From NCBI RefSeq assembly GCF_026016445.1, contig NZ_CP096147.1:904501-968500 (forward strand): a DNA stretch of 64,000 nt, given 5' to 3'. A program made the translations under genes and the position numbers. The notes under the pieces are model-generated. The model had not been told where the DNA came from, did no database searches, and saw only the letters and a list, made by a program, of their open reading frames with translations. Origin of the DNA: Cognatishimia activa (lineage in GTDB: Bacteria > Pseudomonadota > Alphaproteobacteria > Rhodobacterales > Rhodobacteraceae). Below are positions 1 to 63,867 of the stretch, in pieces; the stretch's first letter is position 1; each line of letters starts with the position of its first letter.

Positions 1-503
1 AGGTCTTCTTCGCCGTCAAACAGGAATGCCAATGCAAAGGCACCATCGAGACGCGATAGTGTTGTTCGCGCGGCCGTTACCGGGTCTTGGCCTTGCTCCA
101 GATACATCTGGGTCAACAAAGCGACGGTTTCTGTATCGGTTTCGGTGACAAATTTGATGCCTGCGGCAGCCAGTTCTTCGCGCAGTTCGCGGAAGTTTTC
201 GATAATGCCGTTGTGCACGACAGCCACCGGGCCAGCCTGATGTGGGTGGGCATTGTCGACAGACGGCGCACCATGGGTGGCCCAGCGGGTGTGGCCGATG
301 CCGGATTTACCCGGAAGCGGGTTATGCACCAATGTGTCTGACAAATTCACAAGTTTGCCAACGGCGCGACGGCGGCCCAGTTTACCTTCATGTACGGTCG
401 CAATACCCGCGCTGTCGTAGCCGCGGTATTCAAGGCGTTTAAGCGCTTCCACCAGCAATGGGGAGGCTTCGTGGCTCCCAAGAACTCCAACAATTCCGCA
501 CAT
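1..503 (-). CDS. glmS: Glutamine--fructose-6-phosphate aminotransferase, N-terminal part (GlmS)
   Basis: Makes glucosamine-6-phosphate from fructose-6-phosphate and glutamine, the first step to UDP-GlcNAc for peptidoglycan and lipopolysaccharide. The reading begins MCGIVGVLG, so Cys2 is the N-terminal nucleophile of the class II glutaminase domain; RGYDSAG, GHTRWATHG and the HNGIIEN block follow in the family order. Only about 167 residues are inside the window and the sugar isomerase domains lie beyond base 1. The start codon shares one base with the glmU stop (TAATG), so the two genes are one translationally coupled operon with glmU upstream. Confidence 0.96.
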   Translation of the reverse strand, partial: MCGIVGVLGSHEASPLLVEALKRLEYRGYDSAGIATVHEGKLGRRRAVGKLVNLSDTLVHNPLPGKSGIGHTRWATHGAPSVDNAHPHQAGPVAVVHNGIIENFRELREELAAAGIKFVTETDTETVALLTQMYLEQGQDPVTAARTTLSRLDGAFALAFLFDGEED

Positions 504-1858
504 TATTCTTTACCTTTAACTTGCTTGGCCTTCTTGGCGCGCAACATTTCAAACAATTTTCGGGCCATATTTGGCTTATTCACCTGCTGTGCCCGCGCAA
601 GCGCAAGTGCGCCGTCTTCGACGGGCTTGGTCACCACGGAGCCACTTGCAGTCATCGCGTCATCGCCGACAGACACCGGCGCTACCAGCATTGTATTGGA
701 ACCGATGAAGGCGTTTTTACCGATGGTGGTTTTGTGTTTCATCACCCCGTCATAGTTGCAGGTGATGGTGCCGGCGCCGATATTGGCCTTCTCGCCGACC
801 TGAGCGTCACCGATATAAGACAGGTGGTTAACCTTCGCGCCCTCGTCGATGATGGCGTTTTTGGTTTCAACGAAGTTTCCGATCTTTACGTCTTCGGCCA
901 GTTCTGTGCCCGGGCGCAGTCTTGCGTAGGGGCCGACAATACCACCGCGAGACACGTGTGCGCCTTCCAGATGGCTGAAGGCTCGGATGCGCACGCCACT
1001 TTCAACAGTCACATCAGGGCCAAAGAACACGTTTGGTTCAATAACGGTATCGCGTCCAATGACGGTGTCAAAGCTCAGCCAGACAGAGTTTGGATCAACA
1101 AAGGTAACCCCGTCAGCCATTAATTCTCCGCGTGCACGTGTTTGGAAGGCGGCCTCTGCTTCAGCCAAATGAGAGCGAGAATTCACACCCATTGTTTCGC
1201 TTTCGTCACAGGAGACAGCGGTGGCAGTCAGGCCCTTGTCGCGCGCTGCTTTGACCACATCGGTGAGGTAATATTCACCAGAGGCATTGTCGTTGTTTGT
1301 CGCGTCCAGGAGATCAAACAACACGGAGCTTTTGGCCAGCATAACGCCACTATTACAGAAGCTTATGTTGCGAATGTCATCTCTGGCGTCGGCATATTCA
1401 ACGATTGCTTCAAGCATATCGCCGTCCATTACAAGGCGACCGTATTTTTCAGATGTGTCTGCTTCAAAACCCAACACGACAACAGCGTGACTGGCTCGCG
1501 CTTTGACCATGTTTTCCAGTGTTTCAGGTCGAACAAAAGGCGTGTCGCCATAAAGCACAATGATATCGCCATCAAAGTCTTTGAGCGCCTCACGGGTCAT
1601 CATGACCGCATGGCCGGTGCCGTTTTGCTCTTCCTGCAAAACAACCTGCGCTTCGGGATCATAGGCCTTAGCCGCTGCCTCAACCGCATCTGCGCCATGA
1701 CCGGCAACAACAACTGTGCGTTCAGGGTTCAGTGTCGCGCCTGCCTTCATCGCATGCACGAGCATTGGGGCACCCGCAATCTCATGCAAAACCTTCGGCA
1801 TGTCAGAATTCATCCGGGTGCCTTTGCCTGCGGCAAGGATGACGAGGGCGATGCTCAT
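503..1858 (-). CDS. glmU: Bifunctional UDP-GlcNAc pyrophosphorylase / glucosamine-1-phosphate N-acetyltransferase (GlmU)
   Basis: Cytoplasmic enzyme that acetylates glucosamine-1-phosphate and couples it to UTP, giving UDP-GlcNAc. The start at 1858 gives a 451-residue protein beginning MSIALVILAAGKGTRM, the nucleotidyltransferase signature (LAAGxGTRM...PKVLH). A longer frame upstream has no family-like sequence. The C-terminal half shows hexapeptide left-handed beta-helix spacing, with the acetyltransferase blocks GNFVETKNA and GAGTITCNYDG. Length is normal for the family. It is the first gene of the glmU-glmS unit; the divergent HAD gene starts 136 bases away, so the gap must hold both promoters. 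Confidence 0.97.
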   Translation of the reverse strand: MSIALVILAAGKGTRMNSDMPKVLHEIAGAPMLVHAMKAGATLNPERTVVVAGHGADAVEAAAKAYDPEAQVVLQEEQNGTGHAVMMTREALKDFDGDIIVLYGDTPFVRPETLENMVKARASHAVVVLGFEADTSEKYGRLVMDGDMLEAIVEYADARDDIRNISFCNSGVMLAKSSVLFDLLDATNNDNASGEYYLTDVVKAARDKGLTATAVSCDESETMGVNSRSHLAEAEAAFQTRARGELMADGVTFVDPNSVWLSFDTVIGRDTVIEPNVFFGPDVTVESGVRIRAFSHLEGAHVSRGGIVGPYARLRPGTELAEDVKIGNFVETKNAIIDEGAKVNHLSYIGDAQVGEKANIGAGTITCNYDGVMKHKTTIGKNAFIGSNTMLVAPVSVGDDAMTASGSVVTKPVEDGALALARAQQVNKPNMARKLFEMLRAKKAKQVKGKE

Positions 1859-1994
1859 AATGATTTCTCTTTGTAATTCATTTCCGCACGTTTTATCCGG
1901 TTGATTGTAACGCGCAAGTGGCGAAACCATCAAAGAAGGTTGCGACTTGTAACAGCGGTGGCGGGATTTCGCCCCGCAAGGAGGAGCGAGCAGC

Positions 1995-2669
1995 ATGAAA
2001 TCAGTTATCTTTGATCTTGATGGTACCTTGGCAGACACTTCAGGTGACCTATTGGCGGCTGCAAATCATTGCTTCCGGGACATGGGATTTGGCGATGTTC
2101 TGACTCATGGCCCAGACAGTGGCGTTGCCCTGCGTGGTGGAAAGTTCATGCTGACAACCGGTCTGAAGCGTGTCGAGGCTTATGAAGAAGCCAAAGTTGA
2201 TGCCTATTACCCTATGCTGCTTGAGGCATATGGAGCCGCGATCTCGCAACAAACGACGCTCTATCCGGGAGCGATGGAAGCTGTCGAGATGCTGAAATCG
2301 CAGGGATATGCCGTTGGGATTTGCACAAATAAGCCTGAAAACCTTGCGCATCAGTTGTTGGAAGAGCTTGGCGTGCTGTCCGCTTTCGGCTCGCTTGTGG
2401 GTGCCAATACATTGCCAGTGCGCAAGCCAGACCCAGCGCCGCTTTTTGAAGCTGTAAAGAGATTGAATTGCGACCCCAGGCAATGTCTGCTGGTTGGTGA
2501 CAGCGACACGGATCGGAATACAGCAAAAGCAGCGGATGTTCCGTCGGTTCTGGTGACCTTTGGCCCAAGCGGAGAAGATATGGCTGCTCTGGAGCCAGAG
2601 GCGCTACTCGAAGATTTTGCGGCTTTGCCAAGTGTCGTTCAGGCATTGCTTGGGCCGGCTAAGTCTTAA
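1995..2669 (+). CDS. gph: HAD-superfamily phosphatase, phosphoglycolate phosphatase-like (Gph)
   Basis: A 224-residue HAD hydrolase. Motif I is FDLDGTLADT near residues 5-14 (nucleophile Asp and acid/base Asp). A helical cap follows, then a CTNK motif II region, and motif III/IV is LVGDSDTD near residue 164. This pattern fits 2-phosphoglycolate phosphatases, which salvage phosphoglycolate from DNA repair or oxygenation reactions, but HAD substrate specificity cannot be read from sequence alone. The start is supported by a strong AAGGAGG ribosome binding site 10 bases upstream. It is divergent from glmU. Confidence 0.85.
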   Translation: MKSVIFDLDGTLADTSGDLLAAANHCFRDMGFGDVLTHGPDSGVALRGGKFMLTTGLKRVEAYEEAKVDAYYPMLLEAYGAAISQQTTLYPGAMEAVEMLKSQGYAVGICTNKPENLAHQLLEELGVLSAFGSLVGANTLPVRKPDPAPLFEAVKRLNCDPRQCLLVGDSDTDRNTAKAADVPSVLVTFGPSGEDMAALEPEALLEDFAALPSVVQALLGPAKS

Positions 2670-2753
2670 GCGCGCCGTAAATCTGGATTTCAATAATTTG
2701 AATAAAACCTTGGAGGCGTTGACGCCCTAGGGGCAAACCCACAGAGTGACCCA

Positions 2754-3947
2754 ATGACAGAGATATTCACCGGCAATTTCACCCAGCAAGAACCCATTCC
2801 TGAAGAGGGTATTCAAGCTGCTATCGAGGTTATGCGGTCTGGCCGCATCCACCGCTATAACGTCGCAGAGGGCGAAGATGGCGAGACAGCTTTGTTGGAA
2901 AAGGAATTTGCCGATCAGCTGGGTGTGAAATATTGTCTCGCCGTCGCTTCTGGCGGTTATGCCATGGGGGCTGCTTTGCGCGCCATGGGCGTGGTCCCGG
3001 GCGCGCGGGTTTTGACAAATGCTTTCACGCTGGCCCCAGTGCCTGGAGCGATTGCATCTGTCGGCGCGGTGCCTGTTTTTGTGGGTGTGACCGAGGATTT
3101 GGTCATCGATCTGGACGATCTCGCGGCCAAGGCCGATCAAGCGGATGTGCTGATGCTTTCGCATATGCGCGGGCATCTTTGCGATATGGATCGCCTGATG
3201 ACGATTTGTGAGGCCAACAATCTCCGTGTCATCGAAGACTGTGCTCATACCATGGGGGCAAGCTGGCGGGGCAAGCCTTCCGGGCTATGGGGCGACATGG
3301 CCTGCTATTCGACACAGACCTATAAACATGTGAATTCGGGCGAGGGTGGTTTGCTGGTCTCAAACGACCCAGAGTTGATGGCGCGTGCGACGATCCTCTC
3401 AGGATCTTACATGCTTTACGGTCGCCATCTGGCTGCGCCGGAACCCGAAGTTTTTGAAAAGGTGAAATACCATACGCCGAACGTTTCTGGCCGTATGGAT
3501 CACCTGCGTGCGTCCATTCTGCGCCCTCAGCTGCGCAATCTGGAAGCGCAGTGCGAAGCCTGGAATCTGCGATATCGCACTGTCGATGAGGGCATCGCGG
3601 AAACGCCGGGGCTCACTCGGATCAACCGCCCTGAAGAAGAATTCTATGTCGGATCCTCGATCCAGTTCCTGCTTTTGGACTGGGACGAGGCCAAAATCCA
3701 CGAGGTGATTGCGCGGTGTGGCAAACGTGGTGTCGAACTCAAGTGGTTTGGTGGCAAAGAGCCGGTCGCCTTTACGTCGCGCTACGACAGTTGGCGTTAT
3801 GCGCCGTCAGAACCGATGCCGAAAAGTGACCGCGTTCTGAAAGGCGTGATCGACATGCGCATTCCTCTGACATTCACAGTGGAAGATTGCGCCTTGATTG
3901 CCCGGATCATCAAAGCTGAGGTCAGCGCTGTTTTTCAGGGCGCCTGA
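2754..3947 (+). CDS. DegT/DnrJ/EryC1/StrS family PLP-dependent aminotransferase
   Basis: A 397-residue fold-type I enzyme. The substrate-site stretch VIEDCAHTMGA (near residues 162-172) and the block QTYKHVNSGEGG, with the lysine that should bind PLP, are the two diagnostic DegT family motifs. Members usually transaminate keto-sugar nucleotides for surface polysaccharides; others act on non-sugar ketones. No sugar-nucleotide genes are adjacent, so the substrate is open. The gene is convergent with the EamA transporter, and the two 3' ends overlap by 13 bases. Confidence 0.85.
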   Translation: MTEIFTGNFTQQEPIPEEGIQAAIEVMRSGRIHRYNVAEGEDGETALLEKEFADQLGVKYCLAVASGGYAMGAALRAMGVVPGARVLTNAFTLAPVPGAIASVGAVPVFVGVTEDLVIDLDDLAAKADQADVLMLSHMRGHLCDMDRLMTICEANNLRVIEDCAHTMGASWRGKPSGLWGDMACYSTQTYKHVNSGEGGLLVSNDPELMARATILSGSYMLYGRHLAAPEPEVFEKVKYHTPNVSGRMDHLRASILRPQLRNLEAQCEAWNLRYRTVDEGIAETPGLTRINRPEEEFYVGSSIQFLLLDWDEAKIHEVIARCGKRGVELKWFGGKEPVAFTSRYDSWRYAPSEPMPKSDRVLKGVIDMRIPLTFTVEDCALIARIIKAEVSAVFQGA

Positions 3948-4816
3948 CGGCGTTTTGCGGCAGGCAGGCTGACCGTTTCAATAAAGAATGTGCCGACGAT
4001 CATCACGGCACCGATCCATTGCACCAGTCCAAGCCGTTCTTCTGGTAGGAAAATCGAGGCTGAGATCACGGCGACCAGCACTTCGGACATCATCAACAGT
4101 CCTGCACGGCCCGGAAAGACATGTTTCTGGGCCCAGAAAATCGCAAAAGCGCTTGGGATGAAGACCAGCAGGGACACTGCAGATGCGATTGGCAAGCTAC
4201 GTGTGATTAGGCTCAGACTTGGCCACTCCACGCCCATAACTGCGGCAATGCCGATACCCAGCAGCGTGATGGTCAAAAACTGAGCGCCTGTCATCGCGCG
4301 TAATGGCAGCTCTGGGCTGCGTTTGATCAAAACTGCGGCGACAGCCCAAGCAAAGCCCGATGCTAATGCAAAGGCGTCGCCGAGGTTGAAGCCATTTTGC
4401 TCGCTTGTTCCAACAAGCAGGGCAACACCGCTGAGGCCAATGCCTATGGCAAGCCACCTGCGCCAAGTCACGCGTTCTGACAGGACAATGATACTGATCA
4501 GCGTTGACCAGATCGGGGTCAGATAAAACAGCAATGTGGCGCGCACGACTGAGCCATAGACGATACCCGCAGAATAAAGTCCAAAGCCAAGGCCTGCGAT
4601 GACGCCAACGTAAAGCGCGCGCATGGCGTTTGGCTGTTTTGGGCCAAAGCCAAAGGCGGCGATCAGCATGACGATGGCAGGGGCCAGATTCAGTGACACC
4701 ATCGCCATCATCCCATGCATGCCCTGCGCTTCCAGATAATAAAGCGGTACCCAGTATAGGCCCCAGACAGAGGTCGCGCCGACCAATGTCAGGGAAGCGA
4801 GGGTTTGGGTCTGCAT
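3935..4816 (-). CDS. EamA/DMT-family transporter
   Basis: A 293-residue inner-membrane protein with about ten hydrophobic segments arranged as two EamA repeats, the drug/metabolite transporter layout. The first repeat includes TSVWGLYWVPLYYLE and the second FALASGFAWAVAAVLIKRS. Such proteins commonly export amino acids or other small metabolites; nothing in the sequence fixes the substrate. It overlaps the 3' end of the aminotransferase gene tail to tail, so no separate terminator lies between them. Confidence 0.87.
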   Translation of the reverse strand: MQTQTLASLTLVGATSVWGLYWVPLYYLEAQGMHGMMAMVSLNLAPAIVMLIAAFGFGPKQPNAMRALYVGVIAGLGFGLYSAGIVYGSVVRATLLFYLTPIWSTLISIIVLSERVTWRRWLAIGIGLSGVALLVGTSEQNGFNLGDAFALASGFAWAVAAVLIKRSPELPLRAMTGAQFLTITLLGIGIAAVMGVEWPSLSLITRSLPIASAVSLLVFIPSAFAIFWAQKHVFPGRAGLLMMSEVLVAVISASIFLPEERLGLVQWIGAVMIVGTFFIETVSLPAAKRRQAP

Positions 4817-4990
4817 GGTTTCATTGCCTCAATTGATCTGGTTTGACTTGTGTCAGCCAATAACTAGTGGAGTGAATCCATTTGGGAGGCAATCGATTTT
4901 CTGTCGGAGATAGCGGCGCGCTGCAGAAAGAACGTCGCGTCGCAAATACCTCGACAGACTTGATCGCGAGCTGGGCACTCCTGTATGAAA

Positions 4991-5004
4991 TGAACAAACG
5001 TTCA
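4991..5004. promoter_or_regulatory. Palindromic operator candidate upstream of ivd
   Basis: TGAAC-AAAC-GTTCA is a perfect 5-bp inverted repeat with a 4-base spacer, ending 15 bases before the ivd start codon. Dyads of the type TGAAC-n-GTTCA are common operators of TetR-family repressors that control acyl-CoA and branched-chain amino acid genes. No regulator gene is next to it, so the assignment is an inference. Confidence 0.45.
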
Positions 5005-5019
5005 ATAACGGGGTTGCCC

Positions 5020-6183
5020 ATGTTTATGCACACAATGAATTTCGATCTTGGCGAAGAGGTCAACGCACTGCGCGAGATGGTGCATCGTTGGGCGCAAGAT
5101 CGTGTGCGCCCCATCGCGCAAGAGGTTGATGAGAAAAACGAATTTCCGGCTGAACTATGGAAAGAAATGGGTGAGCTGGGCTTGTTAGGCGTGACTGTTC
5201 CAGAAGAGTTCGGCGGCGCGGGTATGAGCTATCTGGCGCATGTGATTGTAACCGAAGAACTGGCGCGGGCCTCTGCTTCTGTGTCTTTGTCTTACGGTGC
5301 ACACTCCAACCTTTGCGTGAACCAGATAAAGCTGAATGGTAGTGCGGAGCAGAAAGCAAAGTATCTGCCGAAGTTGGTTTCTGGTGAAGCCGTGGGTGCA
5401 CTGGCGATGTCTGAAACCGGCGCGGGGTCTGATGTTGTTTCCATGAAGCTACGGGCCGAAAAGAAAAACGACCGCTACGTGCTAAACGGCAACAAATTCT
5501 GGATCACCAATGGTCCGGACGCCGACACTCTGGTTGTCTATGCAAAGACCGATCCTGATGCCGGTTCCAAAGGCATCACGGCCTTTATCATCGAAAAGGA
5601 GATGGCAGGCTTCTCGACTTCCAAACATTTCGACAAACTGGGCATGCGTGGCTCAAACACAGCGGAACTGATTTTTGAAGACGTCGAAGTGCCGTTTGAG
5701 AACGTGCTGGGTGAAGAGGGGCGCGGGGTGCGCGTTCTGATGTCCGGTTTGGATTATGAACGGGTTGTTCTCTCAGGGATCGGTACCGGCATCATGGCGG
5801 CTTGCCTGGATGAGGTGATGCCTTATCTGGCAGAGCGTAAGCAGTTTGGCCGTCCAATAGGCGACTTCCAACTGATGCAGGCCAAGATCGCGGACATGTA
5901 TACCAAAATGAACTCGGCGCGCGCCTACACCTACGAGGTCGCAAAGGCCTGTGATCGGGGGCAGGTGACTCGTCAGGACGCGGCGGCCTGTGTGCTTTAT
6001 GCTTCTGAAGAAGCCATGGTCGTGGCGCACCAAGCAGTGCAGTCCATGGGAGGCACGGGCTTCATGAATGAAACCCCGGTCAGCCGTATTTTCCGTGATG
6101 CCAAGCTGATGGAGATTGGCGCGGGCACCAGCGAAATTCGCCGGATGCTGATAGGACGCGAGCTGATGGGTAAGATGGCTTAG
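5020..6183 (+). CDS. ivd: Isovaleryl-CoA dehydrogenase (Ivd/LiuA)
   Basis: FAD enzyme of leucine catabolism that oxidises isovaleryl-CoA to 3-methylcrotonyl-CoA and passes electrons to ETF. The chosen start gives 387 residues beginning [14 protein letters not shown], the usual family length; in-frame codons further upstream add unrelated sequence. Acyl-CoA dehydrogenase signatures are [13 protein letters not shown] and [20 protein letters not shown]. An active-site Glu of the isovaleryl type is expected in the central helix near the [16 protein letters not shown] stretch. It is the first gene of a six-gene leucine operon, which together with the operon content identifies the substrate. Confidence 0.93.
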
Positions 6184-7927: not shown

Positions 7928-9865
7928 ATGTTTGACAAGATTTTGATCGCCAACCGTGGCGAAATTGCCTGCCGCGTGATGGAGACAGCGCGCGATCTGG
8001 GAGTGAAGACCGTTGCCGTTTATTCTGATGCTGATGCGGGTTCGAAACACGTCGCGATGGCGGATGAGGCGGTGCATATTGGCGGGTCGGCTCCGGCGGA
8101 TAGCTATTTGAAAGGTGACGTCATCATTCAGGCGGCTTTGGACACGGGCGCGCAAGCTATTCACCCAGGCTACGGATTTTTGTCTGAAAACCCCGAGTTT
8201 GTGGATTCGGTTGAGGCGGCGGGTCTGACGTTTATTGGGCCGTCAGCCAAGGCCATTCGGGCAATGGGTCTGAAGGATGCGGCCAAGGTATTAATGCACG
8301 AGGCGGGTGTGCCCGTCGTGCCGGGGTACCATGGCGAAAATCAAGATGCGGCCTATCTGCAAGCGCAGGCGGAGGAGATAGGCTATCCTGTTTTGATCAA
8401 AGCAGTTGCTGGTGGTGGTGGCAAAGGCATGCGCCTTGTCGAGGCTTCATCTGAATTTGCGGATGCTTTGGCTTCGGCTCAGAACGAGGCGACAACCGCC
8501 TTTGGCAACCCGGATGTTCTGATCGAAAAATACATCCAGCAGCCACGCCATATAGAGGTGCAGGTTTTTGGCGATGGCCAGACAGCAGTGCATCTTTTTG
8601 AGCGCGATTGTTCTTTGCAGCGCCGCCACCAGAAGGTCATCGAAGAGGCGCCTGCGCCGGATATGCCTTTGGATGTGCGCGAAGCCATGGGGCAGGCGGG
8701 AGTCCGTGCAGCTGAGGCCATCGGTTACAAAGGCGCAGGCACGGTAGAGTTCATCGTGGATGGCTCTGACGGGCTGCGCGCGGATGGGTTCTGGTTTATG
8801 GAAATGAACACGCGTTTGCAGGTGGAGCACCCGGTGACTGAGCTGATCACCGGCGTAGATCTGGTGGAATGGCAACTGCGTGTGGCCTCTGGGGAGCCAA
8901 TTCCTGTTGCGCAGGAAGACCTAAGCATCAAAGGCTGGGCGTTTGAATCTCGTCTCTATGCCGAGGATGTGCCGAAAGGGTTTTTGCCAGCGACGGGCAC
9001 GCTGAGCCATCTGGCCTTCCCGGAAGGTTGCCGCGCCGATAGTGGTGTGCGGAGCGGGGATACGATCAGCCCGTTTTATGATCCGATGATCGCGAAGGTC
9101 ATCGTGCATGGGCCATCCCGTTCAGCTGCACTCTCAAAAATGCGTCAGGCTTTGGCGGGCTGCGAAGTGGCCGGTACTGTGACCAACCTAGAGTTTCTTG
9201 GCGCGCTTTGTGCGCATGAGGGATTTGCGAAAGGCGACGTCGATACGGGTTTGATTGCGCGGGACATTGATGTGTTGACGGCGTCGGAATCGGTTTCAGC
9301 TGAGATCACCGCGCAGGCCGCTTTGGCCGTGGCAGGTGTCTTGGATCAGCCTGCGGATACGCTTGGATTTGTGCTTTGGCGTCCGTTGCGCCATTCGGTC
9401 TATCTGCGCCGGGATGAAGAAGAAATCACGGCGAAGATCAAATTCCTCTCGGCAGATGAAGTCGCAGTTGAGCTGGGTAATGTTGAAGTCACAGGGACAC
9501 GCACCCCGAAAGGCTGGCGTATGGGTGGCAAGTTGGTTGCCCCTGCAGTTGTTGCGAATGGCGAAGTCACGGTCTTTGAGAACTATGGCGTTGCCTTTGA
9601 AGTGGTTGATCTGCTGGATAAATCCGCTGCTGTTGGTGCAGCCGGAAATATCATCGAAGCGCCAATGCCGGGGCTGGTGAAGGCTGTCTTTGTTGAGGCC
9701 GGTCAGACCGTTACAGAAGGCGATCGACTTGCAATTTTGGAAGCCATGAAAATGGAGCACTCCCTCTTGGCGGCGCGCGATGGTACGGTTGCTGAGGTGC
9801 TGGCAGTGGCCGGTGGACAGGTCGAGGCCGGTGCGGCTCTGATCAGGCTTGAGGATGAGGAATAA
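7928..9865 (+). CDS. mccA: 3-Methylcrotonyl-CoA carboxylase, biotin carboxylase/BCCP (alpha) subunit
   Basis: A 645-residue protein that carboxylates its own biotin with ATP and bicarbonate for MccB. The N-terminal biotin carboxylase domain starts FDKILIANRGEIACRVM; the ATP-grasp glycine loop is AGGGGKGMR near residues 163-171, and EMNTRLQVEHPVTE is the active-site block. The C-terminal BCCP domain ends with EAMKMEHS, whose second lysine-flanked Met motif marks the biotinylated Lys near residue 610. The BirA encoded at 31229 would modify it. A GAGGAGG ribosome binding site precedes the ATG, and the gene is 3 bases from the GST gene. Confidence 0.95.
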   Translation: MFDKILIANRGEIACRVMETARDLGVKTVAVYSDADAGSKHVAMADEAVHIGGSAPADSYLKGDVIIQAALDTGAQAIHPGYGFLSENPEFVDSVEAAGLTFIGPSAKAIRAMGLKDAAKVLMHEAGVPVVPGYHGENQDAAYLQAQAEEIGYPVLIKAVAGGGGKGMRLVEASSEFADALASAQNEATTAFGNPDVLIEKYIQQPRHIEVQVFGDGQTAVHLFERDCSLQRRHQKVIEEAPAPDMPLDVREAMGQAGVRAAEAIGYKGAGTVEFIVDGSDGLRADGFWFMEMNTRLQVEHPVTELITGVDLVEWQLRVASGEPIPVAQEDLSIKGWAFESRLYAEDVPKGFLPATGTLSHLAFPEGCRADSGVRSGDTISPFYDPMIAKVIVHGPSRSAALSKMRQALAGCEVAGTVTNLEFLGALCAHEGFAKGDVDTGLIARDIDVLTASESVSAEITAQAALAVAGVLDQPADTLGFVLWRPLRHSVYLRRDEEEITAKIKFLSADEVAVELGNVEVTGTRTPKGWRMGGKLVAPAVVANGEVTVFENYGVAFEVVDLLDKSAAVGAAGNIIEAPMPGLVKAVFVEAGQTVTEGDRLAILEAMKMEHSLLAARDGTVAEVLAVAGGQVEAGAALIRLEDEE

Positions 9866-9868
9866 AGT

Positions 9869-10531
9869 ATGATCACGCTTCACCATGTGGCGGCGTCCCG
9901 TTCGTTTCGCACGCTTTGGCTTTTGGAAGAGCTGGGGCTGCCCTATGCGGTGAAACACTATAAGATCCGCGATGGATCCTTGCGTGATCCGGCGTTTCTG
10001 GAAATATCACCTGCTGGGCGTGTGCCTGCGCTGGAAATTGACGGGAAGGTCATTTTCGAAAGCCAGGCGATTACGCAGTATCTCTGTGAATCACGCTCAC
10101 TTGCAGGGCTGGCACCGAAACAGGATGAACCAGAACGGGTGGAGTACCTGCAATGGCTGGCTTTCGCAGAAACACAAGCCAGCATCATCGCGTCGCTGAA
10201 TTTACAGATGGTATTTTTGCGCCCGCCTGCGAAGCCCTCTGTGGTGGTTCTTAAACTGGAAATTGCGCGATTGGCAGCGACGCTGAAGCCGCTCGAAGAG
10301 GTTTTGGACGCGCAGAATTGGCTCCTTGCAGGTGGGTTTTCTGCGGCCGATACGATGCTGGGGTTCAACCTGTTTGCGGTTCAGTATTTTGTGGACCTGT
10401 CAGCCTTCCCGAATATCCGCGCCTATATGGAGCACATGGAGGAGCGGCCCGCGTTTAAGCGCGCGCGTGCGAACGATGGTGATCAGGAATTCTACGACAA
10501 ACCGTTCTATGCGCCTGAGGATTATGCCTGA
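9869..10531 (+). CDS. Glutathione S-transferase family protein
   Basis: A 220-residue cytosolic GST. The N-terminal thioredoxin-like domain has the ASRSFRTLWLLEELGLPY start, the cis-proline region GRVPALE near residues 46-52, and the FESQAITQYL glutathione-binding turn. The C-terminal domain is all-helical. It starts 3 bases after mccA and ends against hmgL, so it is part of the leucine operon. GSTs inside liu clusters may detoxify or dispose of reactive enoyl-CoA by-products, but that role is an inference. Confidence 0.9.
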   Translation: MITLHHVAASRSFRTLWLLEELGLPYAVKHYKIRDGSLRDPAFLEISPAGRVPALEIDGKVIFESQAITQYLCESRSLAGLAPKQDEPERVEYLQWLAFAETQASIIASLNLQMVFLRPPAKPSVVVLKLEIARLAATLKPLEEVLDAQNWLLAGGFSAADTMLGFNLFAVQYFVDLSAFPNIRAYMEHMEERPAFKRARANDGDQEFYDKPFYAPEDYA

Positions 10532-10532
10532 G

Positions 10533-11390
10533 ATGTCTGAATTCGTTGAGATTTTTGAAGTCGGCCCGCGGGATGGTTTGCAAAACGAAAAGGTGGAGAT
10601 CAATACGGAAGCCAAGGTGGCTTTGGTTGACCTGCTAAGCTCTGCAGGCTTCAAGCGCATTGAAGTTGCGAGCTTTGTATCCCCGAAATGGGTGCCGCAA
10701 ATGGCGGATTCAGCGGATGTACTGGCGGGGATCACGCGTAAGGTAGGCATTTCCTATGCGGCGCTGACGCCGAACAAAACGGGGTTTGAGCGGGCATTAG
10801 ACGCGCGGGCGGATGAGATTGCGATTTTTGCCTCTGCATCTGAAGGGTTCTCCAAGGCCAATATCAATGCGACGATCACCGAGAGCCTGGAGCGTTTTGA
10901 ATCCATAGCCGAAGCGGCCAAAGTGGCAGGCATACCAATGCGGGGATATGTCAGCTGCGTCACTGACTGTCCGTATGACGGTAAAACGGATCCAGCGGAT
11001 GTTGCGCGCGTGGCGAAAGCTTTATTTGACTTGGGCTGCTACGAGATTTCATTGGGCGATACCATCGGGCAGGGTACGCCAGACAGTATTGGCGCCATGT
11101 TGAAAGCGGTGACCAATGTGATCCCCGCGGAGCGCCTTGCGGGGCATTATCATGATACTTCTGGACGGGCGCTTGAAAACATCGAAGCCTCGCTGGATTT
11201 TGGTGTACGGGTCTTTGATGCGGCTGTGGGGGGGCTTGGCGGGTGTCCTTATGCGCCAGGGGCTGCAGGCAACGTCGCCACCGAAGCGGTTGATGCGCGT
11301 TTGAAAGCGCTTGGATATGAAACCGGCTTGGACGCCGAAGTGATCGGAAAAGCCGCCGAAATGGCGCGGGCCATGCGGGCAGGGAGCTAG
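10533..11390 (+). CDS. mvaB: Hydroxymethylglutaryl-CoA lyase
   Basis: Cleaves HMG-CoA to acetoacetate and acetyl-CoA, the last step of leucine degradation. The N-terminus EIFEVGPRDGLQNE is the HMG-CoA lyase signature with the metal-binding Asp. Other blocks are ASFVSPKWVPQMAD, SLGDTIGQGTP and the C-terminal GLGGCPYAPGAAGN with the catalytic Cys loop. The start at 10533 gives 285 residues. An ATG at 10524, overlapping the GST stop, is the alternative and sits closer to the GAGG at 10516. The TIM-barrel length is normal for bacterial enzymes. Confidence 0.94.
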   Translation: MSEFVEIFEVGPRDGLQNEKVEINTEAKVALVDLLSSAGFKRIEVASFVSPKWVPQMADSADVLAGITRKVGISYAALTPNKTGFERALDARADEIAIFASASEGFSKANINATITESLERFESIAEAAKVAGIPMRGYVSCVTDCPYDGKTDPADVARVAKALFDLGCYEISLGDTIGQGTPDSIGAMLKAVTNVIPAERLAGHYHDTSGRALENIEASLDFGVRVFDAAVGGLGGCPYAPGAAGNVATEAVDARLKALGYETGLDAEVIGKAAEMARAMRAGS

Positions 11391-57956: not shown

Positions 57957-58879
57957 AGGTGGCTCCGGGTTGGGCGATCAAAGATTTTTCGTCCGAGAGA
58001 AGAGGCGGCGAGATCGACCATTAAAGTCGCCGTGCGGCCACGCTCATCAAGGAAGGGGTTGAGTTCGACAAGATCAAGCGACGTCATCAAGCCACTGTCA
58101 TGCAGCATCTCCATGACCAAATGGGCCTCGCGGACTGTCGCGCCTCCGGGTACGGTGGTGCCGACGGCCGGGGCGACGCTTGGGTCCAGAAAGTCGACGT
58201 CCAGAGAAACGTGCAACATGCCATTCGCGTCTGAGACCCGTTTCAAGAATGCAGCGAGGGGCTTGGCTATTCCGCTTTCATCGATTTCCCGCATGTCATG
58301 GCGAAAGATTTCGCTGGCCATCAAGGCGTCGTGTTCTGCCTGATCGACAGAGCGCAAACCGATGATGCAGACATTTTCTTGTGGGACTGGGTTTTCGACC
58401 TTTGGAAATCCGTCAAAGCCATCACGACCCGTGAAATAGGCTACAGGTGTCCCATGAAGGTTGCCGGAATCTGTGGACGTCGGTGTGTGGTAGTCGCTGT
58501 GAGCATCCAGCCAAAGAACAAATTGTGGGCGGTTTTGTTTCTTAGCAAAGCGAGTTACGCCGGTGACCGTTCCGGCCGCCAAGCTGTGGTCTCCGCCCAG
58601 GAAAATGGGCAGCCCGTGTGGCATCGCTGCTTCTGCCGCGTCTGCTAACGCCTCTGTCCAGGCGATGGTTTCAGACCAAAAATGAACTTTCGCATCTGGC
58701 GGAGTTAGATTTCGTTCAGGACGAACCACATTGCCTTCATCGATCACTTTGTGGCCGAGCTCTTCCAGACTTTCGACCAAACCTGCTGTTCGATAAGCAT
58801 CGGGACCCATAAGGCAACCGCGTCGCTGTTTTCCTGAATCGACCGGAGCACCGATCAAGATACATGTGTGATGTGTCAT
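57953..58879 (-). CDS. rocF: Arginase
   Basis: A 308-residue manganese enzyme splitting arginine into ornithine and urea. Metal-site blocks are GGDHSLAAG, WLDAHSDYHTP, SLDVDFLDPSVAPAVGT and a GLMTSLDLVELNPFLD end. ATG at 58879 gives MTHHTCILIGAPVDSG; an upstream TTG adds non-family sequence. It is the first gene of rocF-ctlX-ocd, divergent from an Lrp-type regulator. Confidence 0.93.
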   Translation of the reverse strand: MTHHTCILIGAPVDSGKQRRGCLMGPDAYRTAGLVESLEELGHKVIDEGNVVRPERNLTPPDAKVHFWSETIAWTEALADAAEAAMPHGLPIFLGGDHSLAAGTVTGVTRFAKKQNRPQFVLWLDAHSDYHTPTSTDSGNLHGTPVAYFTGRDGFDGFPKVENPVPQENVCIIGLRSVDQAEHDALMASEIFRHDMREIDESGIAKPLAAFLKRVSDANGMLHVSLDVDFLDPSVAPAVGTTVPGGATVREAHLVMEMLHDSGLMTSLDLVELNPFLDERGRTATLMVDLAASSLGRKIFDRPTRSHL

Positions 58880-60464: not shown

Positions 60465-60935
60465 GGCTTCCTCAATCTGTCTTCGCCTGCGTGCGCCAGT
60501 TCAGAAAAGAGTGCAAGCGAAAACTCAAAAAACCAGGTCGATACCCTGATCGAGATCATTCATACACTTGATCGGTAATATTTAACATTAGGAGGAAAAT
60601 ATAATGGTTATAAAACAAATATTTATGATTGGTAGTTCATTTATAAAGTTAGAATTCGATTCATCAATATTGGTCTCTAAATATAGGTAATTAAAGGATC
60701 TGATACCCAAATCACCTCTGGTTACAAATCACTGCTAATGTGATCAATATAGTCCTCATTATAATGGATATTTAGAGTTGTTCACAGGATGCTTGTGGAT
60801 GAAGCTTATAATGTGAGTTTGAGCAATAGAAATTTCTTACTATGAATTAGGTCCAAAATTATTTTTGGAAATTTCTGAATTTTGGCGTTTTGCCTCTGGA
60901 CGCCCATGGGCCGCTTCGTTATCTCAACCGAACGT
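60465..60935. other. AT-rich region before tRNA-Leu
   Basis: A 471-base gap whose middle (about 60560-60890) is far more AT-rich than the rest of the window. It carries a 28-codon frame with an ideal ribosome binding site (60604-60690) and two near-matches to DnaA boxes (TTGTTCACA at 60778, TGTGGATGA at 60793). No other gene seen. It may be a remnant of earlier insertion next to the tRNA gene. Confidence 0.5.
60604..60690 (+). CDS. Possible 28-aa small protein with strong ribosome binding site
   Basis: ATG at 60604 with AGGAGG at 60590-60595, spacing 8. The product begins MVIKQIFMIGSSFIKLEFDS and ends SILVSKYR. It is hydrophobic and basic, of a size and form seen in small toxic or membrane peptides. 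Chance is possible in AT-rich DNA, but the ribosome binding site is the best in this region. Confidence 0.35.
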   Translation: MVIKQIFMIGSSFIKLEFDSSILVSKYR

Positions 60936-61019
60936 GCCCAAGTGGCGGAATGGTAGACGCAGGGGATTCAAAATCCCCCGCCGCGAGGCGTGCCGGTTCG
61001 AGTCCGGCCTTGGGTACCA
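60936..61019 (+). tRNA. tRNA-Leu (anticodon CAA)
   Basis: GCCCAAG (60936) pairs with CTTGGGT (61009-61015) as acceptor stem with a G-U at the end. The D arm lies around TGGCGGAATGGTAGACGC. The anticodon stem GGGGA...TCCCC holds loop TTCAAAA with anticodon CAA. The long variable arm CGCC-GCGA-GGCG and T arm GCCGG-TTCGAGT-CCGGC are typical of class II tRNA. CCA is encoded. A second 3' half lies at 63779, so this gene is the left end of an inserted element; its 3' half may be supplied by that element. Confidence 0.96.
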
Positions 61020-61404
61020 CCTTGTTTTTGCAGGGTTTTTCGTCAGAATCGAAACTGATTTTTCTCCTGAAATTGTAGTTGTAACTCGTCCGTAACTCAT
61101 TGGTATGAGTTACGAGGCCGATTTTCTGTTTTCTACTACACGTCTTGTGTTTGAGTGAATATTGACAACTATATGAAAAGAAATGATTAAACCCAGTTGG
61201 TTGCTCCTAATTTTTTTGTTCGATTGATTGACGCGGGGGATTGTTCCTCCTTAGAAAAGGTAACAAACTTTGCGGATTGTTGTGATTTTAGTACCGCCCT
61301 CAACTTTGGTTTTGTTGATTTAAGAAAAGATCTGGTACCCGCCCAGCGGCACGTTATTCAAAAAATAAGGTTTCAAAGCATTGAAAATTACGCAAGCAGC
61401 CGAG
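61020..61404. other. Left end region of the tRNA-Leu element
   Basis: A 385-base non-coding stretch. It holds the 13-base arm-type repeat GTAGTTGTAACTC (61075-61087), a hairpin CGTAACTCAT-TGGT-ATGAGTTACG (61091-61114) built from the same GTAACTC word, and a promoter candidate. TTGACA (61162-61167) is a consensus -35 box, and GATTAA (61185-61190) a weak -10 box at 17 bases. The KAP gene leader follows. Frames starting with TTG near 61197 lack support. Confidence 0.5.
61075..61114. repeat. Arm-type repeats at the left end of the element
   Basis: GTAACTC occurs directly at 61081-61087 and 61092-61098, and inverted (GAGTTAC) at 61107-61113. The first is part of GTAGTTGTAACTC, whose exact inverse lies at 63740-63752 by the right att site. 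Repeats of this sort flank attachment sites of tyrosine recombinases as arm-binding sites. Confidence 0.6.
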
Positions 61405-63684
61405 ATGGATCAAGAAGCCCAAGCTCTTGAGCTTTCTCGCCTGATCAAATCCGAAGGTCCAATTTCTAACTCTTCTGAAGATGAGCTGCGACGGCTGAGA
61501 TTTGCGAAACATATAGCTGATGCGCTTTCGCAAAAGAGTACCAACAGCGGTAGAGTTTTTGCGATAAGAGGTCGTTGGGGGGATGGTAAAACGTCTCTTA
61601 TGAACCTTGTCACGGAAAACTTGGAACGTGACGAATGGTTGCTATTTAATCCTTGGAGTTGGGGTGACAGCGACGCTATTGCTAAGGCCCTCTTTCAGGA
61701 AATTGCAAACAAACTGAATACCGGGCATTCAGAAAATGCTAAAAGGCGTGCGAAAGCGTTTCGGAGATATGGGCAAATCTTGACCCAAACGGGAGGCCCT
61801 CTGAAAGCCGTTGCTGAATCCAATACAATTCTGAGTTTGGTACTTGGAAGCGTAGCATTGGCTTCGTTGACGGGGGCGTTCGGGTTAGACGTTCCGAAAC
61901 TTGAGACTGCGGCAGTCGGATTTACCATTGCTGCCTTAACGGTTCCGATCTTAGGTGGACTACTAAGTTACATGGGAGCGGACAAATGGTCCGAGCCGGT
62001 AGAAGAAATCAAAGCTTCATTAAACGAAAGTCTGAAAAATCTTGACCGGCCGTTGATAGTATTTGTTGACGACATTGATCGGCTAGAAGAGGAGGAGATC
62101 AGATCGCTAATTCGGCAAGTAAAAGCGAATGCGAATTTCCCAAATCTAGTCTTTGTGTTGCTTCACCAGCAAAGCATTGTGGAAGCTGCGCTTGATCCAA
62201 TTGCAAATGGCAAGGGCCGGGATTTTCTCGAGAAAATTGTTCAAATGAGCTTTGATCTTCCAGCCGTTCCAAAGAGCACCGTCCACAGGATTTTTACTCG
62301 AGAGCTTTCGAAGTTGGCAAACCAATTTGCTAAGCAAGAAAATGGTTTCGAGGATGTTCGATGGGGCAATATGTTGATTGATTGCGTTCAGCCTTTCGTC
62401 AACAATCTACGTGATGCCAGAAGGTTAACATCCTCTTTGGCTATTCATTTGCCTCTTCATACAGAGGGTGAGTTTTTCGAAGTCAACATCATTGATTTAC
62501 TGGTTCTTGAAACGTTGAGGGTGTTCGAACCGGATTTTCACACTGAGCTGTTCGCCAATCAGGATTTGATTCTGGGATCGAACCGGTCTTCGAATGACGG
62601 GCGACGTGCTGAAATACGGGAGCAATTGGAAGATATTGTGGGATTGGTTAGGGATGAACTTCAACCTACTGCCCAAAGAGCTTTGAAACAGTTGTTTCCG
62701 CAAACGGAAAGCATTTTGGGCGGAAATATCTATGGGCCGGAATGGCACCAAGAATGGAATGCCTCAAAACGTGTTTGCAGCCCACGATATTTTCCAAAGT
62801 ATTTTGAGCTTCAAACGCCTCTCGGCGAGATCTCCCTTTCCGATTTTGAATTTTTTGTTTCCGTAAGCGGAGATGAAGAGAAACTGAAAGAGTTCATCGG
62901 AAGCATACGTAGCAAAGGTATGCTTGGTTCGCTTATTTCGATGATAGATGAATCGGTAGAGAGGCTGCCCGTCGGTAATGCTGCGGTACTTCTGCCTATG
63001 TTGTTCAAGATGGCAGAGGATAGCGTCGAAGAAGAGGGGCCGAGTATGTTCAATTCTAGCTACACGCAGGGTTGGCGAGCGGCGAGCTGGTACTTACGAT
63101 CCCTACCCGCAGAGGAACGAAGCCAACATGCGATTGACGCCCTGAGAAAAACAGGGGCGTTGCAAGTGGCATCGACGTTAATTCACTTAAACGATCCAGC
63201 CAGCCAAAGCGAAAATTCTTCCAACCGACTTGAACCAGCGTTGACAGCCGAGGAGTTGGATGGGTTAAAGCAAGAATGGCTGCATTTGGTTCGGCAATTA
63301 TCTGGAGACAGGGATAAGTTGCTGGAGCGAGACGACTTGATTTCCCTTCTTTTTAGATGGCGAGACTATTCTGGCGGTCTTACTGAACCGAAAACATGGG
63401 TCGATTCAGTCATAGATTCTGATGAGGGATTTTGCATGTTTCTCCGCAAGGCGACGTCAGTTGGATGGACCACCACAGTTGGCGACCGCGTTAGTAGAAA
63501 AACAGAAGGATTTGAAAAATCGACAATTTCTAACTTCATCGGGATTCATGAAGCGCTAGAACGCGCCGAACGACTGGCAGGAACTTCGATAGAAAAGCGG
63601 TTTTCTAGTGAGTTGGGGAACCTTCGTACCCATTTGGATCTTTGGTTACAGGAAGAGGAAAGCGAGGAAGATAGGCAACTGTAG
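61405..63684 (+). CDS. KAP-family P-loop NTPase, probable phage-defence cargo
   Basis: A 759-residue protein. Walker A is GRWGDGKT (residues 56-63), the typical FNPWSWGD stretch follows at 81-88, two hydrophobic helices (141-160 and about 168-190) interrupt the NTPase domain, and Walker B is IVFVDDIDRL near 218-227. This split by membrane helices is the KAP hallmark, as in PifA of plasmid F, which excludes T7. The C-terminal 450 residues are mostly helical with no motif I know. TTG at 61381, with AAGG about 10 bases upstream, is an alternative start. Base composition is lower in GC than the neighbours. It is the only large gene of the element. Confidence 0.88.
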   Translation: MDQEAQALELSRLIKSEGPISNSSEDELRRLRFAKHIADALSQKSTNSGRVFAIRGRWGDGKTSLMNLVTENLERDEWLLFNPWSWGDSDAIAKALFQEIANKLNTGHSENAKRRAKAFRRYGQILTQTGGPLKAVAESNTILSLVLGSVALASLTGAFGLDVPKLETAAVGFTIAALTVPILGGLLSYMGADKWSEPVEEIKASLNESLKNLDRPLIVFVDDIDRLEEEEIRSLIRQVKANANFPNLVFVLLHQQSIVEAALDPIANGKGRDFLEKIVQMSFDLPAVPKSTVHRIFTRELSKLANQFAKQENGFEDVRWGNMLIDCVQPFVNNLRDARRLTSSLAIHLPLHTEGEFFEVNIIDLLVLETLRVFEPDFHTELFANQDLILGSNRSSNDGRRAEIREQLEDIVGLVRDELQPTAQRALKQLFPQTESILGGNIYGPEWHQEWNASKRVCSPRYFPKYFELQTPLGEISLSDFEFFVSVSGDEEKLKEFIGSIRSKGMLGSLISMIDESVERLPVGNAAVLLPMLFKMAEDSVEEEGPSMFNSSYTQGWRAASWYLRSLPAEERSQHAIDALRKTGALQVASTLIHLNDPASQSENSSNRLEPALTAEELDGLKQEWLHLVRQLSGDRDKLLERDDLISLLFRWRDYSGGLTEPKTWVDSVIDSDEGFCMFLRKATSVGWTTTVGDRVSRKTEGFEKSTISNFIGIHEALERAERLAGTSIEKRFSSELGNLRTHLDLWLQEEESEEDRQL

Positions 63685-63739
63685 TCAGTTTTGTGAGATG
63701 TCTCTCTTCGCGAATTTGACAACGATGAATTCAATCCAT

Positions 63740-63752
63740 GAGTTACAACTAC
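63740..63752. repeat. Arm-type repeat at the right end of the element
   Basis: GAGTTACAACTAC is the exact inverse of GTAGTTGTAACTC at 61075-61087. It sits 55 bases after the KAP stop and 26 bases before the right tRNA fragment. Paired with the left copy it gives a symmetrical arrangement at both ends. Confidence 0.6.
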
Positions 63753-63778
63753 GTTGAAAAATAATGCTTTTCTCTGGT

Positions 63779-63833
63779 TTCAAAATCCCCCGTCCTAGCG
63801 GACGTGCCGGTTCGAGTCCGGCCTTGGGTACCA
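63779..63833 (+). pseudogene. 3' half of tRNA-Leu(CAA), right attachment site
   Basis: From the anticodon loop to CCA this repeats tRNA-Leu: TTCAAAATCCCCCG, then a variable arm CGTCC-TAGC-GGACG that differs from the intact gene's, then 31 identical bases. No 5' half precedes it, so it cannot make a tRNA. The strong terminator right after it shows it is the original 3' end of the host gene, pushed downstream by the insertion. Confidence 0.85.
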
Positions 63834-63834
63834 T

Positions 63835-63867
63835 AAAAAACGGGTGGCTTTGGCCACCCGTTTTTTT
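63835..63867. terminator. Bidirectional intrinsic terminator
   Basis: CGGGTGGC (63841-63848) and GCCACCCG (63853-63860) pair around TTTG, with an A run before and a T run after, so it works on both strands. It ends transcripts of the tRNA-Leu locus from the left and of the gene at 63878 from the right. Confidence 0.92.

Follow-up and report, generated by a model that had tools for sequence, protein, structure and literature searches.

Near the end of a 64,000-nt window of the Cognatishimia activa genome (NZ_CP096147.1, 904,501-968,500; the window is the whole stretch analysed, and all positions below refer to it) lies a gene for tRNA-Leu(CAA) that is followed by a compact, putatively mobile element with a single large gene. 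Specifically, ARAGORN and Rfam recognize a single complete tRNA-Leu(CAA) gene at this end of the window (60936-61019, forward strand), whose anticodon loop contains the heptamer TTCAAAA (60967-60973, forward), identified from the sequence and by repeat search as the left crossover core and part of the left attachment site, attL. The tRNA gene is followed by 361 bases without a large gene, a frame of 767 codons, 94 bases and a second tRNA-Leu 3' half (63779-63833, forward), which starts in the anticodon loop at 63779 and has no 5' half. In this second copy the repeat search finds the right crossover core, again TTCAAAA (63779-63785, forward), as part of the right attachment site, attR. The distance from core to core is 2812 bp and delimits the element at 60967-63778 on the forward strand. 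Past the displaced half are found a terminator-like hairpin, visible as an inverted repeat (63835-63866, forward) and attributed to the original tRNA gene, and then a conserved gene that is also present downstream of empty sites in relatives. The guanine plus cytosine (GC) fraction is 0.453 in the element versus 0.541 in the window, and all 2.3-kb blocks tested in the first 60.9 kb have values of at least 0.502.

The two tRNA 3' halves coincide at both extremities and diverge in between. In particular, their 3' ends (60989-61019 and 63803-63833) are identical at 31 of 31 bases and their anticodon-loop regions (60964-60980 and 63776-63792) at 16 of 17 in the repeat search, the intervening variable arms are unlike (CCGCCGCGAGGCG versus CCGTCCTAGCGGACG), and no single continuous repeat spans the two copies. 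Both variable arms have counterparts in the genus, sampled as nine genomes, that is, the window's own and eight others: the left allele is present in G004 and G005, the displaced half carries the allele TCCTAGCGGAC as do G002, G003, G007 and G008, and G001 and G006 have other alleles. By exact pattern, the tRNA 3' half occurs twice in the window's genome and once in each of the eight others. In seven of these eight, the tRNA gene is directly followed by the same gene that stands after the right half in the window, with no insert; in the remaining one, G003, about 2.5 kb of other DNA follows the tRNA without a second tRNA half, and synteny resumes beyond it. Since the halves carry different variable arms, both of them alleles of the genus, an insertion rather than a duplication is indicated. 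The crossover is located inside the anticodon-loop TTCAAAA and, consequently, the left 3' half (from the anticodon loop of the complete tRNA onward) would be element-borne and the right half the original one; as both alleles occur in the genus, which half came in is something that we infer. We consider an att-bounded insertion at this locus to be established with high confidence, and its origin by tyrosine-type recombination at the anticodon loop to be close to certain. The original prediction, made from the letters of the DNA, had described this site-specific insertion with restoration of the 3' half, and both the structure (cores, rebuilt tRNA and displaced half) and the coordinates proved correct. 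It had also proposed the search for empty tRNA-Leu sites in relatives, which are indeed there, and had named a tandem tRNA-Leu duplication as the finding that would overturn it, a reading countered by the different alleles of the two halves.

The large gene of the element (61381-63684, forward) encodes a PifA-like P-loop nucleoside triphosphatase (NTPase) of the KAP family, of 767 aa when read from a TTG codon or 759 aa from the ATG at 61405. The protein displays Walker A (GRWGDGKT) and Walker B (IVFVDD) motifs and two hydrophobic stretches, which begin close to residues 150 and 177. It matches PF07693 (KAP_NTPase) with an E-value of 9.4e-43, above the cut-off of the model, and the PADLOC PifA model PDLC02361 with an E-value of 1.5e-83 over nearly the full length (model positions 5-714 of 720, residues 22-751); a match to QatA in NCBIfam is weak and below cut-off. 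The resemblance to a defence gene, anticipated by the original prediction, is thereby sustained. In the study concerned (PMC8594841), PifA of the F plasmid acts in abortive infection against T7 and has a narrow range, and the authors consider that immunity may not be its principal function; for this reason, a role of the cargo protein in phage defence is what we infer from similarity. Among 7995 candidates scored, 513 homologues of the cargo were found, the best one after the protein itself being P0002 of Pelagimonas (60% identity). KAP homologues occur in 6 of 60 genomes of relatives, namely the window's own and five distant ones with 25-40% identity in the pieces listed, and P0002 used as a query at an E-value of 1e-30 retrieves proteins in 2 of 394 genomes of the family, the window's own and one at 24%. 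No KAP homologue was found in phage records. Plasmids provided homologues in 98 records, with a best identity of 48%; in two homologue regions that were read no like element was seen, and in one of them the gene follows a site-specific integrase gene. Protein relatives sought by peptide patterns in genome contigs amounted to 22 stretches, none of which was confirmed, and sequence matches in the PDB consist of three chains named SAKe6 over about 40 residues. Shorter frames are also found within the element, for example one of 77 codons at 61197-61430 (forward).

The 767-codon frame is the only large gene of the element, and no recombinase is evident beside it, in agreement with what had been predicted: PF00589 has no match inside the element, the best tblastn match of eight integrases has an E-value of 0.17, and no reverse frame longer than 62 codons exists in the 361-base left end. 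Transfer genes are likewise absent from the element, the KAP NTPase gene being its sole large gene. In the whole genome, PF00589 detects an XerD-like protein and an XerC-like protein, each of which falls below the XerD and XerC thresholds of NCBIfam, and an integrase of 580 aa adjacent to Tn7-like genes; none of this set therefore fits as a helper. Regarding the last of these, the 580-aa tyrosine integrase has a sub-cutoff match to DUF6538 and stands directly after a Tn7-like cluster (L236, 8978-16325, at about 2.42 Mb of the genome), composed of a TnsA-like protein, an IS481-like transposase, an ATPase and a 600-aa protein without an NCBIfam match, the matches lying below NCBIfam cut-offs.

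The same tRNA gene is occupied in other members of the family. In the sample of 394 family genomes, queried with the loop-to-T-loop half pattern, 188 match, 13 of them twice. Both halves are on one contig in seven genomes, at distances of 2.8 kb (G000), 5.6 kb (G388), 10 kb (G176), 11 kb (G386), 36 kb (G247), 42 kb (G182) and 58 kb (G389); the two shortest intervals have no integrase and the other five have one. Specifically, integrases of one clade stand beside the tRNA in G386, G247 and G389, the G182 integrase is a distant relative and that of G176 belongs to another family. In six genomes the two copies are on separate contigs; G337 and G362 carry a clade integrase, and G110, G160, G171 and G296 were examined partly or left out. 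The clade is further represented in Poseidonocella (L105), which we take to be a member of the same family, and in the IMG/VR contig L210. Five clade integrases are 55-60% identical. The end of the integrase frame was measured in six elements and is 81-114 nt away from the tRNA in each of them, a spot that is empty in the window element. The interval of G388 (L250, G388:C22, about 459-6069) encodes a subtilase, a protein whose PAP2 match is below cut-off and a tetratricopeptide repeat (TPR) protein, with no match to the eight integrases; its right end is similar to the one of the G362 island, which bears an integrase (local alignment z 6.2), with the words GACTCCCAC and GTGGGAG kept. Another short interval, of 2.16 kb, is found in an alphaproteobacterial metagenome-assembled genome (L094/L253, G425:C19, about 8962-11142) between 3' halves resembling tRNA-Pro(CGG), a label that follows the anticodon as read in L254; Rfam gives no match on L094. 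It has no integrase, shows paired AAGTGACT repeats at both ends and encodes an ImmA/IrrE-like peptidase (PADLOC capP match) and an unassigned 321-aa protein; an integrase gene is present in the DNA on its left side. Two further observations concern occupancy of the site. In G247 (L085/L086), a second clade integrase, represented by its C-terminal part, is located immediately past the right tRNA half, at the edge of the sequence examined, in a tandem arrangement at tRNA-Leu(CAA). Within the genus, a 390-aa integrase with Arm-DNA-bind_3 stands beside an isolated tRNA 3' fragment (G007:C14, L087 250-1600), probably representing another island.

The ends of the window element carry repeats resembling the arm sites of tyrosine integrases, as had been proposed. 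The word GTAACTC occurs five times on the two strands of the 64-kb window, and four of these copies (61081, 61092, and, inverted, 61107 and 63740) are within 100 bases of the rebuilt tRNA end or of the right core, the fifth being at 58552. In detail, the first left arm-like site, GTAGTTGTAACTC (61075-61087, forward), has a 13-base perfect inverted copy in the right arm-like site, GAGTTACAACTAC (63740-63752, reverse), 39 bases ahead of the right core; the second, GTAACTC (61092-61098, forward), is direct and follows the first by 11 bases, and the third, GAGTTAC (61107-61113), is on the reverse strand. The window pattern is, in other words, a pair on the left with a spacing of 11 bases and, on the right, one inverted copy at -39. 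The G362 island presents a comparable arrangement with a word of its own, found four times: two direct copies 13 bases apart on the left and, on the right, one at -84 (direct) and one at -47 (inverted). G386 and G247 have three of the four positions, G337 also has three (with one left copy), and G389 has the left pair only. Repeat counts were compared with simulations whose model was trained on the ends themselves, asking whether some 7-mer reaches the observed count. This occurred in 2 of 1000 simulations for G362 and in 14 of 1000 for G182, where a word is also found four times; G176, with its other integrase family, has no word above two copies (972 of 1000). Five of seven empty-site controls contain no 7-mer more than twice. 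The comparison with other elements at tRNA-Leu(CAA) adds weight to the putative arm sites of the window element. Its left-end DNA has no relatives beyond the window itself in the 394 family genomes.

Words of the same kind are met elsewhere. A tandem GTRACTC located 60-90 bases after a tRNA T-loop was found at 20 genome-contig loci from several phyla (L093-L112), in a scan made without a control word, and in four viral contigs (L246-L249) versus none for the control word; it may be a widely shared integrase arm motif. Two of the loci in these scans are at tRNA-Leu(CAA): L105 combines GTGACTC with a clade integrase, and L101, from Pseudomonadales, has GTAACTC. Tandem GTAACTC is present in 32 viral contigs, two of which encode a distant integrase (21% identity, E-value 1e-11). 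In a viral scan for tRNA-Leu halves, GTRACTC lies within 200 bases in 4 of the 121 matches listed, never twice. A right-end pattern match in L048 was discarded as chance, and two other places in the genome with TTCAAAATCCCC are not tRNA-like. One of the 32 viral contigs, L049, contains TTCAAAATCC.

The reading that we prefer, to which we give an even chance, is that the window element is a non-autonomous 'hitcher' resembling a cis-mobilizable element (CIME), that is, one PifA-like KAP NTPase gene between attL and attR with arm-like sites, inserted by way of a helper integrase. A tyrosine integrase of the tRNA-Leu(CAA) clade, encoded by another element in the same cell, would bind the arms, and strand exchange inside TTCAAAA of the anticodon loop would insert a circle of 2812 bp; the 3' half brought by the element would rebuild the tRNA, and the original 3' half would be pushed to the right end. 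The DNA may have reached the cell in a phage particle, in tandem with a larger island or by some other route. The cargo, probably a membrane-linked anti-phage ATPase, would represent the benefit by which the element is kept. The least certain step is that the element is a complete minimal moving unit rather than the remnant of a larger island.

Several results weigh against the helper-dependent reading. The element is known in one copy only. Its own genome now contains no fitting integrase by PF00589 search, serine recombinases not having been searched. A search of the 394 family genomes with the right-end pattern, GAGTYAC 25-45 bases ahead of the core, gave a single match, in the genome that contains the window, and viral contigs gave none. 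Among the 20 genome-contig loci there is no integrase-bearing tRNA-Leu island with GTAACTC twice, L101 having no match to the eight integrases, and the 32 viral contigs with tandem GTAACTC include none that encodes a clade integrase or shows a T-loop in the 160 bases upstream of the repeat. Movement by a helper, as originally proposed, is still putative: no integrase-bearing element with the same arm word emerged from the 394 family genomes, the matches listed in the viral scans or the 20 genome-contig loci. As for the repeats, some 7-mer occurs four times in 29 of 1000 simulated window ends and in 630 of 20000 in a second run, and since simulated ends reach the observed count that often, the repeat alone is weak, at most moderate evidence. 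The ends of G386, G247, G337 and G389 are singly not significant (71, 95, 73 and 964 of 1000, respectively), those of G388 are matched in 112 of 1000 simulations, and in two of the seven empty-site controls an A-rich 7-mer is found in three copies (440 and 429 of 1000). Furthermore, the window lacks a direct right copy near -83, its ends give no alignment above z 2.8 with those of other elements, and the left end of G388 has one inverted copy left and aligns weakly with G362 (z 2.0).

Alternative accounts of the locus differ in how much of its structure they explain. The presence of two tRNA 3' halves in one genome could in principle reflect a tandem tRNA-Leu duplication or an assembly artefact with no insertion at all. 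This account is scarcely credible in view of variable arms that differ and are both represented in the genus, of a right copy devoid of a 5' half, of an interval gene of unlike composition and of a syntenic empty site in relatives, in a genome assembled as one contig. In the minimal mobile element concept, genes are exchanged by homologous recombination between conserved flanks, and the tRNA half could have been carried along in such an event; the genes flanking the locus are conserved across the genus, but the concept predicts neither junctions in the anticodon loop with a rebuilt tRNA nor arm-like repeats at both ends, and we regard it as very improbable.

A more serious competitor, whose probability we place somewhat short of even, is decay: a larger island or prophage, autonomous and with an integrase of the tRNA-Leu(CAA) clade, would have inserted here and then lost this integrase and all its other genes but one by internal deletion, so that the ends and that one gene are left in an element immobile without a helper. 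Decay is the usual account of CIMEs (PMC5704250), and gene loss is the account of miniature inverted-repeat transposable elements (MITEs) and of clusters of attC sites lacking integron integrases (CALINs) in PMC11389934. An integrase is present in five of the seven contiguous intervals at the site, and no cognate helper was found. However, the expected integrase remnant was not found in the element, neither by tblastn nor among the reverse frames of the left end described above; the deletion would have had to start right after the left repeats and to stop ahead of the cargo gene, and the integrase is missing from G388 in a similarly clean manner; and the 13-base arm copies match perfectly and the cargo gene is intact. 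A bolder extension of the helper-dependent reading, which we judge rather unlikely, is that the family carries att cassettes, namely units of one to three genes, sometimes defence-like, with core and arm sites but lacking a recombinase, and that any matching integrase of a diverse clade present in the cell moves them in trans into tRNA-Leu(CAA). The arm word would then set the helper, in the way that oriT works for mobilizable plasmids. Two members would be the window element and the G388 interval, and the tRNA-Pro-like interval of L094 would extend the principle to another tRNA.

Among the closest known systems are CIMEs. They keep attL and attR and have lost the genes for integration and transfer (PMC5704250), and 15 ssrA islands without integration modules in Dehalococcoides might be CIMEs according to PMC3146451. 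The original prediction, which presented the form as not known, was accordingly too strong; what is unusual is that the element consists of one gene and bears arm-like sites on either side of it. Like CIMEs and the Dehalococcoides islands, the window element appears to retain both attL and attR and has no genes for integration or transfer. Unlike CIMEs, it has one gene and stands alone rather than in tandem; no remnant pointing to an origin from an integrative and conjugative element (ICE) or an integrative and mobilizable element (IME) was found in it, and no adjacent element is present now, a single pair of tRNA-Leu(CAA) halves being found in the genome. Its arm repeats are in the style of tyrosine integrases, whereas the Dehalococcoides islands involve serine recombinases. 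CALINs and integron cassettes also comprise mobile units needing an integrase in trans (PMC11389934), but the window element is inserted into a tRNA gene by a phage-type site. The integrase-bearing islands and prophages at tRNA-Leu(CAA) (G386, G247, G337, G362, G389, L105 and L210) share with it the tRNA and the TTCAAAA core, and the arm layout is comparable as a whole in G362 and partially in the others where both ends are present, this comparison not extending to L210 on the left side or to L105 on the right; in contrast to it, they have an integrase near the left end, arm words other than GTAACTC and, where both halves are on one contig, sizes of 11, 36 and 58 kb (G386, G247 and G389). As compared with PifA of the F plasmid, the cargo appears related by its match to the PADLOC PifA model but sits alone in an island. 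Phage satellites such as phage-inducible chromosomal islands (PICIs) and P4-like elements would be similar in their need of a helper, but the window element has one gene and no integrase. No description of a single-gene element of this sort was found in the literature, as judged by titles and abstract openings, with subscription papers mostly outside.

With an intact tRNA gene at one end and a displaced fragment in the same orientation at the other, the locus has the arrangement typical of Islander predictions. Islander (PMC4383910) requires an integrase gene between tDNA and fragment, which the window element does not have; integrase-less att-bounded intervals consequently escape it. If elements made of one gene and arm sites are indeed mobilized in trans, the coding cost of spreading defence genes could be very low, and the arm word would offer a sequence handle to pair an element with its helper. 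The present locus represents a clean test case, with sharp ends, one gene, empty sites in eight relatives and an integrase clade at the same site.

Two minor features of the surrounding DNA can be added. The intergenic stretch upstream of the tRNA gene (60536-60930) is AT-rich, with a GC fraction of 0.337. The first bases of the element after the rebuilt tRNA (61020-61046) are, by eye, like positions 9671-9697 of L210 at 21 of 27 bases, a segment that is apparently chromosomal flank after a tRNA-Leu 3' half; this likeness might be due to a captured flank or to a convergent hairpin.

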